DNA from: a virus
Length of the DNA: 64,000 nt
IMG/VR virus record: IMGVR_UViG_3300009182_003747
Location: 1 to 64,000 of that record
Direction: 5' to 3' (one strand)
Both the position numbers and the translations under genes were made by a program. The notes below the pieces were generated by a model that saw only the letters and a program-made list of their open reading frames with translations, ran no database searches and was not told the DNA's origin. This document shows positions 2,409 to 10,096 of this stretch, piece by piece; within the stretch, counting starts at the first letter, position 1; the number at the start of each line of letters is the position of its first letter.

Positions 2409-2585
2409 ATGGAGTTCATCGACATTCAGACTCGAGACCCAATGGGTGTGTGGAGAGTCTACGACACGACAATCAATGAGTCTCAGATAATCAGGGCGCG
2501 CATGCACGAGCTCAAGGACAGGTACCCTACCTTTCAGGTACGAGCTGTAGATAAAGACGGCAAGATAGTCGATTTCTTGGGTTGA
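2409..2585 (+). CDS. Small hypothetical protein (58 aa)
   Basis: ATG 2409 lies 1 base after the preceding stop, and TGA is at 2583-2585. The product has 58 residues: MEFIDIQTRDPMGVWRVYD at the start, a helix with REM-type charged residues, then a strand FQVRAVDKDGKIVDFLG. An alternation of strand-helix-strand with a conserved-looking DKDGK turn is visible, but no family is recognised. The stop codon TGA is embedded in the TTGACA box of the next promoter, a compact arrangement. Coding is supported by spacing and codon use. Confidence 0.6.
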   Translation: MEFIDIQTRDPMGVWRVYDTTINESQIIRARMHELKDRYPTFQVRAVDKDGKIVDFLG

Positions 2586-2621
2586 CATTTAATCTAACTC
2601 ATGATACTATCTTAATATAAT
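2582..2621 (+). promoter_or_regulatory. Promoter region in front of the structured RNA
   Basis: TTGACA at 2582-2587 is followed at 17-base spacing by TACTAT (2605-2610). A better -10, TATAAT at 2616-2621, follows with only a weak -35. Either would start transcription at about 2617-2628, just ahead of the folded region beginning near 2650 and with no open frame of normal size between. Confidence 0.5.
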
Positions 2622-2649: not shown

Positions 2650-2873
2650 GAGAAAAGACAACTTCGGTTGTCTCTTCATGGATACATCAGAGCCCGAAGT
2701 GTGTGCACAATAATAAACACAGAGGTAGGTCCACCAAAGAATACAGCTATTTCGAATGTCGCTGGTGAGGTGTAGGCTAGACAGCTGGTGTATCCTTGAA
2801 GAGACAATTGTGATGGCGGAAAAGCCGCTGACTATATTAAAAAATGGCTTGGATATAATGATAAATCCAAACC
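2650..2873 (+). ncRNA. Candidate structured non-coding RNA with two competing folds
   Basis: No convincing gene occupies this stretch. A 7-bp hairpin capped by TTCG spans 2656-2673 (AGACAAC/GTTGTCT). The downstream half of that hairpin also begins a long-range helix: 2668-2690 pairs with 2785-2807 over 23 positions with one mismatch and one G-U pair. The two structures are mutually exclusive. Inside the long helix are smaller hairpins (CAGC/GCTG around 2744-2764). After it come GCGG/CCGC (2816-2828) and TTGGAT/ATCCAA (2849-2870). A promoter lies upstream and tRNA-Asn follows. The setting resembles the stable RNAs C and D encoded in the T4 tRNA cluster, but sequence identity to a known class is not claimed. 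Confidence 0.5.
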
Positions 2874-2906: not shown

Positions 2907-2983
2907 TCCTGGACGGTCACAAGGTGGGACAGCAGACTGTTAATCTGTTCATCAGGTAGGTTCGATTCCTACTCCAGGAGCCA
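2907..2983 (+). tRNA. tRNA-Asn (anticodon GUU)
   Basis: Acceptor TCCTGGA pairs with TCCAGGA 2973-2979, then G and CCA. The anticodon stem is GCAGA/TCTGT with loop CTGTTAA and GTT at 2939-2941. The D arm is irregular (GTC/GAC around ACAAGGTGG), while the T arm is normal. Confidence 0.85.
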
Positions 2984-2992
2984 ACCATTAAA

Positions 2993-3086
2993 GGCAGACC
3001 CACAGATAGCTGCCTCCGCCATACGCGAAAAGTGGGATGGGCTGCGTATGCGGGGTTTGGTAGTTTTCCTGACACAAGAAAAACTA
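2993..3086 (+). other. Hairpin-rich intergenic stretch after tRNA-Asn
   Basis: Three successive stems can be drawn: GGCAG/CTGCC (2993-2997 with 3010-3014), a bulged 10-bp stem CCGC-C-ATACGC with GCGTATGCGG (3016-3026 with 3044-3053), and TAGTTTT/AAAACTA (3061-3067 with 3080-3086). They could be the 3' part of the upstream structured RNA, with tRNA-Asn inserted in it, or a transcription end between convergent units. No poly-U run follows the last stem on either strand. Confidence 0.35.
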
Positions 3087-3093
3087 TCACCAG

Positions 3094-3540
3094 TTAATCG
3101 TTGGTTTGATGTTTCATAATAAGTATTGGCTTATCTGCAGAAGGCACTGCATTTTTAGCTCTATTGATATCACCTTGCCAATAATCTTTTACTTGTTGTG
3201 AAACAAATCCATTTGTAGAAATTTTTTGTGTCGGAACTGTTTTAGAGTGATCTATTGCGTGTTGAACACTATATCTTTGTTTGCCATCACCAAAAGTGCT
3301 TCCTGTAAAATAATCACCTTTTTTTCTAGCAGCTGTAGCTATTTTATCATGATCATCTGCTTCTTTTTTTGATAAAGGTTTTAAGTTATTTTGATCAATT
3401 ATTTTAGCATGAATTTGGTTATTATTATTCATAATAGCATTTTTACTTCTATTTAATCCATCAATAATGCTATGAGTATCTCCACTTAATTTAGAATTAA
3501 TATCTAAATCTTCATTTATGAATTGTAAAAATGTTTTCAT
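3094..3540 (-). CDS. Putative internal head protein with T4-type capsid-targeting peptide
   Basis: 148 residues from ATG 3540, chosen over upstream ATGs because AAGGAT lies just before it and a TATAAATA late promoter sits 35 bases upstream. The first eleven residues, MKTFLQFINED, match the capsid-targeting sequence of T4 internal proteins (MKTYQEFIAEA type), including an I-x-E site as cut by the gp21 prohead protease. The rest is hydrophilic, Asn/Lys/Asp-rich and lacks cysteine-rich or membrane motifs. The gene is far more AT-rich than its surroundings and is the only leftward gene in this rightward region, suggesting recent gain. Inference: it is packaged in the head and ejected with DNA. 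Confidence 0.6.
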   Translation of the reverse strand: MKTFLQFINEDLDINSKLSGDTHSIIDGLNRSKNAIMNNNNQIHAKIIDQNNLKPLSKKEADDHDKIATAARKKGDYFTGSTFGDGKQRYSVQHAIDHSKTVPTQKISTNGFVSQQVKDYWQGDINRAKNAVPSADKPILIMKHQTND

Positions 3541-3574
3541 TTTTTTATCCTTTTTAATTACATGAATTTTTATA

Positions 3575-3582
3575 TATTTATA
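3575..3582 (-). promoter_or_regulatory. T4-type late promoter TATAAATA
   Basis: Exact TATAAATA on the minus strand, 34 bases upstream of ATG 3540. This octamer is the recognition element of gp55-family late sigma factors, and a gp55 homologue is encoded at 24672-25271. Confidence 0.75.
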
Positions 3583-3617
3583 GATGATCACTACTTTGAC
3601 TCAAATCTAAGACAACA

Positions 3618-5740: not shown

Positions 5741-5893
5741 AATTCGGTAGGCAGTGTAGATTCGCGGCCAAGTAAGCTCTCCACCCGATAGGTGTGTGGC
5801 TCTCTTACTTGGCGTGGTCGGGGAGGTATAAGCCTCATAACCATGGGAACCCGTGCACTGAAAAGAGGATGCATACTCGTTCCTACCGAACTT
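5741..5893 (+). ncRNA. Candidate multi-branched structured RNA
   Basis: This block between tRNA-Gly and the next promoter has no gene. A perfect closing helix joins TTCGGTAGG (5743-5751) to CCTACCGAA (5882-5890). Inside are a perfect 10-bp helix GCCAAGTAAG/CTTACTTGGC (5767-5776 with 5804-5813) capped by CACC/GGTG (5782-5785 with 5791-5794), a hairpin GAGG/CCTC (5823-5836), and a hairpin CATGG/CCGTG with a four-base GAAC loop (5842-5855). That gives a closed domain with at least three arms, about 150 nt. It lacks a T-loop and an anticodon arm, so it is not a tRNA. The class is unknown. Confidence 0.55.
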
Positions 5894-9601: not shown

Positions 9602-10096
9602 TTACCTACATAATGCTGTCATTAGAGGGATGATACTTCTCATACCGTGACATGCCATAAAATCTACTGCCCCCCATACCAGTAGACCAATCCATATTAG
9701 TATTGGTAGGACTACGAAGATAGAGAACACAGCCCAGAACAACTCCCAGAATTCTTCTTTTCTCCTCTGAGCTTCTACCTTGAGTCTGTGGATCTCTTTG
9801 GCAGCCTCAGCTCTAGCCCTGTAGAACTCTTGTCTCTGAGCTGGAGACATCCTAGAGATCATCTCCTGCTCTTGCTCGGCCGCGATCTCTCGCATGGCCT
9901 GCTCGCGCAGAGTATTGTTATTGCGAATAATCTGGTTATTTATCTCGGTGATTCTATTCTGAGCTAATACTTTTCTATTATTAGCTTCTTTCTGGGCGGG
10001 TGCATTCCTAACTACATCGACGATACCAAACACCGCGTCAGTTATTCCCTTACCATACGCGCCGCCGATCTTAGCGGCTGACTTTGGATCTATCAT
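9602..10096 (-). CDS. Membrane-anchored coiled-coil protein
   Basis: 164 residues from ATG 10096, chosen over an upstream start at 10150 because AGGGGAT stands 6 bases before it. It has a Gly/Ala-rich N-terminus, a long helical Arg/Glu/Gln/Asn-rich region (about 35-115), then a hydrophobic stretch near 118-142 (FWAVFSIFVVLPILIWIGLLVW) and a short tail with two cysteines. Transcription probably comes from TATAAATA 10172-10179. The function is unknown. A membrane location in the late lysis region makes a holin-related or tail-assembly-associated role possible. Confidence 0.6.
   Translation of the reverse strand: MIDPKSAAKIGGAYGKGITDAVFGIVDVVRNAPAQKEANNRKVLAQNRITEINNQIIRNNNTLREQAMREIAAEQEQEMISRMSPAQRQEFYRARAEAAKEIHRLKVEAQRRKEEFWELFWAVFSIFVVLPILIWIGLLVWGAVDFMACHGMRSIIPLMTALCR

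Follow-up and report, generated by a model that had tools for sequence, protein, structure and literature searches.

A structured non-coding RNA with two palindromic loops beside the tRNA genes of a freshwater phage

The locus and its relatives

The stretch of DNA analyzed here (64,000 nucleotides, hereafter the window) comprised positions 1-64000 of the 104,111-base IMG/VR virus record IMGVR_UViG_3300009182_003747, which belongs to a freshwater virus that infects bacteria. In profile searches, the portal, tail sheath, and large terminase of this phage were assigned to T4-type families, and the portal protein matched those of T4-like phages of many hosts. A first-pass annotation of the DNA had placed a structured RNA containing a long helix at 2650-2873, behind a promoter and beside tRNA genes. 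Both neighbors were recovered, as a promoter-like sequence upstream and a tRNA-Asn downstream (Table 1), and a second copy of the promoter sequence (86% identity) was present at 96246-96295 (-) of the virus record, upstream of an ORF. The region 2640-2875 had a folding energy of -68.6 kcal/mol, which was not equaled by any of 200 dinucleotide shuffles (z = -4.1). The 3′ boundary given at 2873 proved too far downstream, the conserved unit stopping at about 2808. The RNA proper spans window positions 2668-2807, or ~140 nt (about 128-145 nt across homologues), and its overall fold is a three-way junction of helices P1, P2, and P3-P4. Judged by sequence comparison, it is a structured non-coding RNA of a previously uncatalogued family.

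Table 1. Features at and around the RNA, in window positions.
Feature	Positions	Strand	Remarks
Sigma-70-like promoter, TTGACA-17-TACTAT, extended -10	2582..2610	+	Putative; from consensus and sequence likeness only
Local 5′ hairpin, core GACAAC-UUCG-GUUGUC (2657-2672)	2652..2677	+	Covaries; in most of 23 distinct homologues
P1, 5′ strand	2668..2690	+	98% of main-helix cells paired; two-sided changes at several pairs
P2 arm	2692..2726	+	GCC 2692-2694 / GGU 2724-2726; GUGU 2699-2702 / ACAC 2717-2720
Palindrome 1, P2 loop, UGUGCACA, core GUGCAC (2703-2708)	2702..2709	+	Putative kissing loop
P3 and P4	2729..2777	+	P3 GUC/GGC, ACC/GGU; P4 CAGC 2744-2747 / GCUG 2761-2764
Palindrome 2, P4 loop, UUCGAA	2751..2756	+	Putative kissing loop
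Junction strand UAGAYAG, P3 to P1	2778..2784	+	Conserved in the alignment
P1, 3′ strand	2785..2807	+	U2796 opposite U2679 at the always-mismatched pyrimidine position
tRNA-Asn	2907..2983	+	ARAGORN

Homologues were sought with eight pattern scans of IMG/VR (2.9 million viral contigs) and with a covariance model, R1. The loosely specified viral scans also returned coding or chance false positives, which were spotted by sequence or model and left out. After removal of the coding false positives, 34 full-length rows remained, 23 of them distinct (the near-identical L004 being counted together with the window sequence), and the last scan contributed six further distinct members, for ~29 in total. 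R1 scored full-length members at 86-161 bits, with E-values that are rough owing to a short calibration. All true full-length members adjoined phage tRNA clusters, apart from those in which the stored part of the contig breaks off at the RNA. In 10 of the 23 distinct homologues, P1 is followed after 0-7 nt by a tRNA, and in L020 a tRNA ends on the other side of the RNA. Because this spacing is tight in many relatives, tRNA processing could set the ends of the RNA.

Searches of Rfam 15 with strict and lax settings yielded no match to the RNA; apart from one Atu_At1 match in L014, they returned tRNAs, a permuted tmRNA at another locus, and weak matches attributable to chance; a search of the region with E-values up to 10 gave the tRNA and two weak chance matches only. 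The Rfam check proposed in the first-pass annotation, with the GOLLD, ROOL, and tmRNA models included, thus produced no match at 2650-2873, and the GOLLD and ROOL covariance models matched neither the window nor the homologues. We rejected a tmRNA identity for 2650-2873, where no tRNA-like domain, tag frame, or model match was found by ARAGORN or Rfam. Comparison by blastn with cultured phages and plasmids returned chance pieces only. When 84,980 prokaryote genomes were scanned with a 17-nt pattern, the eight matches were all due to chance and none fitted R1.

Secondary structure and covariation

The long helix described earlier, pairing 2668-2690 with 2785-2807 over 23 positions with 21 Watson-Crick pairs, was reproduced with the same arms, and its two other positions were a U-G pair (2687 x 2788) and a U.U mismatch (2679 x 2796). 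At the latter, which is P1 position 12, pyrimidines were mismatched in every one of the 23 sequences (16 U.U, 6 C.U, and 1 U.C), as well as in 6 of 6 members found later. Covariation analysis of homologues had been suggested as a check, with arms that change without compensation as a refuting outcome; instead, P1 exhibited two-sided changes at several pairs, and uncompensated changes were confined to a few cells. Since G-U cells in P1 outnumbered A-C cells by 33 to 1 across the homologues, the molecule under selection is the RNA of the + strand.

Taken together over 21 distinct sequences, P1 and P2 had 97.4% of their cells paired and eight pairs with two-sided changes, those of P2 including UA/CG and GC/CG/UA exchanges. 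Cells with two-sided changes numbered 30, as compared with 9.4 in shuffles, a comparison that cannot be read as a probability because the homologues share descent. When the partners were slid by 1-3 columns, pairing fell to 35-46%. P1, P2, and P3 covaried in the homologue alignment, and all three were recovered by an unguided RNAalifold prediction. P4 was assigned by inspecting the sequences within two P3 subtypes, between which P3-P4 alignment was difficult; its stem varied from CAGC/GCUG to CUGC/GCAG, CCGUC/GACGG, and CCACU/AGUGG. The earlier reading of the region as a structured RNA is therefore upheld by homologues, secondary structure, and covariation.

Upstream, a local hairpin is formed by GACAAC (2657-2662), UUCG (2663-2666), and GUUGUC (2667-2672), extending to 2652-2677 with one mismatch, such that its 3′ strand is also the outer 5′ strand of P1. 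Its loops in the homologues were often UUCG or GNRA (GAAA, GUAA); L020 lacked the hairpin, and L018 and L039 had only a weak one. Scored with its own arm, the hairpin reached 7.15, as compared with 6.30 when arms were swapped between members (0 of 300 as high) and 4.73 with shuffled leaders. Because the hairpin strand fits its own arm better than swapped or shuffled ones, and given the two-sided changes in P1, both pairings of the shared strand are evolutionarily maintained, in agreement with the initial description of one strand with two alternative stems. The full P1 was computed to be more stable than the hairpin in 23 of 23 members, by 0.7-12 kcal/mol; the window sequence had an advantage of about 12 kcal/mol, and several other members one below 2.5.

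Palindromic loops and comparison with known RNAs

No alignment sites other than the loops of P2 and P4 had two or more different 6-nt palindromes. In P2, the loop variants were GUGCAC, GCGCGC, and CUGCAG, stretched to eight letters in several members (UGUGCACA, UGCGCGCA, UCUGCAGA, and AGUGCACU), and a 6-nt Watson-Crick palindrome was present in 17 of 18 distinct P2 hairpins, as compared with 4.9 expected on shuffling. A short-P2 subtype (L013, L015, and six held-out members) carried a 4-nt palindrome, GAUC, which was unvarying and without covariation. The P4 loop appeared as UUCGAA, UCCGGA, CAGCUG, CAGCGCUG, UCGCGCGA, CGGCCG, and GGUACC, and as CCGG only in L018. Held-out members, retrieved with a pattern from outside the loops, had a P4 palindrome in 6 of 6 cases, including the new UCGCGA and UGGCCA. 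Seven of eight different hexamers were palindromic, for which the chance would be about 2e-12 if they were random, a figure that shared descent renders only indicative.

Mean self-pairing runs were 7.6 and 6.1 for the two loops, against 3.8 for cross-pairing of P2 with P4, and complementarity between the two loops was rejected on these values. An intramolecular hairpin as the cause of the P2 palindrome was also rejected, the remaining loop being too short in most variants. Energy models, which take in no loop-loop contacts, left the palindromes only partly unpaired (0.17-0.99), which speaks against freely accessible loops. Kretsch et al. took compensating changes between neighboring loop letters, which are unable to pair inside a single chain, as a sign of intermolecular contacts in OLE L9.3 and GOLLD L21a (PMC12286853). 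By the argument applied to OLE and GOLLD (PMC12286853), and because the loop palindromes here covary and are self-complementary, we infer from sequence that copies of the RNA associate through P2 and P4 kissing loops as homo-oligomers.

Among known RNAs, GOLLD and ROOL are the closest in character, being phage-encoded, tRNA-adjacent, and structured. Both are homo-oligomers held by kissing loops, and GOLLD has covarying palindromic loop letters (PMC12286853). However, they run to many hundreds of nucleotides and have another architecture, whereas this RNA measures about 140 nt, bears two palindromic loops, and has a closing stem in common with other inserts; moreover, GOLLD and ROOL do oligomerize, while oligomerization here is deduced from the covarying palindromes. 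With respect to the traits of GOLLD, proximity to tRNAs in phages was observed, while its length and conserved 3′ domain were absent. The RNA is a new family, most like the self-assembling, tRNA-adjacent GOLLD and ROOL and a member of neither. A more distant likeness concerns the dimerization initiation site of HIV-1, the loops of which are GCGCGC or GUGCAC. Both six-letter self-complementary sequences are also common P2 loops here, although the virus is unrelated and the hairpin context and function differ, so that the resemblance is convergent only.

The closing stem, rival explanations, and neighboring elements

Stems of the P1 type also enclosed other inserts in tRNA clusters, often in tandem; these inserts were unrelated and about 24-125 nt long. 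The stem with its pyrimidine mismatch was present in 15 of the 17 other units listed, among which one (L008 3488) looks like a chance occurrence. In tandem arrays such as L036 and L007, the local hairpin arises between neighboring units, its strands being the 3′ arm of the first and the 5′ arm of the second. Tandem units with differing inserts on one stem were seen in L036 (7733-8245), L037, L007, L038, L043, L039, and L012, and one tandem insert (L017, L036, L037) holds a tRNA T-arm-like sequence, GACGGTTCGAATCCGTTAC.

Model R1 also matched the source phage itself (28.9 bits) at 93414-93507 (-). This is the segment that separates the two pieces of a circularly permuted tmRNA located at about 93,250-93,600 (-), which was recognized by the Rfam models alpha_tmRNA (E = 3e-26) and tmRNA_permuted (E = 1.5e-18) and has the tag AKKAHNDNINYSAMKIAA. 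The inner part of the intervening stem of this two-piece tmRNA precursor has GGAUACAUC and the U.U mismatch in common with P1, and the intervening insert resembles short ones located ahead of tRNAs in other phages. Because the P1-type stem is reused around other inserts and around the tmRNA segment, the centrally mismatched stem probably serves all of them as a handle for recognition or processing. Two other phage permuted tmRNAs were noted, one (L071 9250-9603 (-)) with an intervening segment closed by a P1-like stem motif, the other (L079 11699-12057) with a different intervening stem that is devoid of the P1 motif.

The account we favor, and hold to be reasonably probable as a whole, is that of a non-coding RNA of the tRNA cluster that folds first as a hairpin and then as P1, associates with itself through kissing loops, and uses its stem as a handle. 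The ~140-nt RNA would be made within the tRNA-cluster transcript, its 5′ UUCG hairpin forming first during transcription. As the 3′ arm emerged, P1 would zip up by branch migration and close the three-way junction of P1, P2, and P3-P4. Enzymes of tRNA processing would help to set the ends, and mature copies may then join through the self-complementary P2 and P4 loops into dimers or larger assemblies during infection. Our best guess for the role is that the RNA serves the lytic phase as a structural element or scaffold.

The same stem could, alternatively, be mainly a processing signal that cuts the tRNA precursor, such as a tRNA-processing guide or an RNase III site (the helix has about two turns and is mismatched at its center), its interior being only a spacer. 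Such a signal would fit the related stem around the tmRNA intervening segment and the recurrence of the pyrimidine-mismatched stem, in tandem and beside tRNAs, around inserts of several kinds, but the strong conservation of the interior, with its junction nucleotides, two covarying arms, and two palindromes, would be needless in a spacer, and we regard this explanation as unlikely; a processing role and a functional RNA are in any case compatible. Less likely again is a regulatory folding switch in which a ligand, a protein, or transcription speed toggles between the UUCG hairpin and P1. The first-pass annotation had suggested a switch or co-transcriptional refolding, and the shared strand indeed has two pairings that are each conserved and covarying. 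However, the two were not of comparable stability, P1 being favored computationally in every member, the hairpin is missing or weak in the three members named above, in tandem arrays it simply forms between neighboring units, and no downstream coding region in the window depends on it. Of the two suggestions, the bistable switch is thus disfavored and refolding during transcription is plausible. Given the modeled stabilities, we read the hairpin as a co-transcriptional structure, or as a processing or insulating element, rather than as a switch.

An analogy to the packaging RNA (pRNA) of phi29, acting on the phage motor or head, was also considered. pRNA is built as a terminal helix joined to a three-way junction and makes contacts between molecules through its loops; this RNA resembles it in being a small phage RNA whose terminal helix leads into a three-way junction with two loop-bearing arms. 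The phi29 pRNA is also a recognized natural RNA multimer (PMC12286853). Yet the loops of pRNA pair with each other, whereas those of this RNA are each complementary to themselves, and the source phage has a T4-type portal, sheath, and large terminase, with no sequence match to pRNA and no Rfam family match for the RNA, rendering a packaging function very improbable. Finally, inverted repeats and palindromes occur as DNA features too, but a DNA-level palindrome or cruciform element is hardly credible in light of the excess of G-U over A-C cells in P1, the constant orientation upstream of tRNAs, and the covarying three-way junction.

Beyond the favored account of a self-associating RNA of the tRNA cluster, it is conceivable, though we lean against it, that the elements make up a modular system in which several unrelated inserts are carried in tandem on one mismatched stem, arise from tRNA-cluster transcripts, and are served by one common factor, with at least one insert self-assembling through two kissing loops into a structure made of RNA alone during infection. 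Natural self-assembling RNAs are rare, and the known phage cases (GOLLD, ROOL, and pRNA) are very large or tied to one motor. If the favored account is true, a ~140-nt RNA with two evolving self-complementary loops would provide a small, easily made test system, which could be used to probe why phages carry self-assembling RNAs. The shared stem, in turn, suggests that the RNAs of phage tRNA clusters are processed or bound by a common factor that has yet to be described.

Several other elements were observed in these clusters. A second uncharacterized conserved structured RNA lies after the tRNA-Asn, at window positions 2991-3095, with a possible pseudoknot (ACCCAC/GUGGGA) followed by a hairpin, and 13 related contigs hold copies of it that are 77-97% identical. 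A third candidate structured RNA, at 5743-5889, is closed by TTCGGTAGG/CCTACCGAA (-58.8 kcal/mol), and had a 95.6% identical stretch in L005, a weaker match in L018, and no Rfam match. In L014, a match above threshold (64.2 bits) to Atu_At1, a Rhizobiales sRNA family, was located at 9875-9982 (-), between two phage tRNA genes and on the opposite strand. ARAGORN called tRNA-SeC genes with anticodon TCA in three phage tRNA clusters (L020 8019-8096, L078 1301-1378, and L084 7327-7404); tRNAs that carry selenocysteine or read UGA would be unusual for a phage. Opposite the tRNAs of the window, at 3094-3591 (-), an AT-rich ORF reading MKTFLQFINE... after an internal start had a weak PHROG match only, and looks like a recent insertion in the tRNA cluster.
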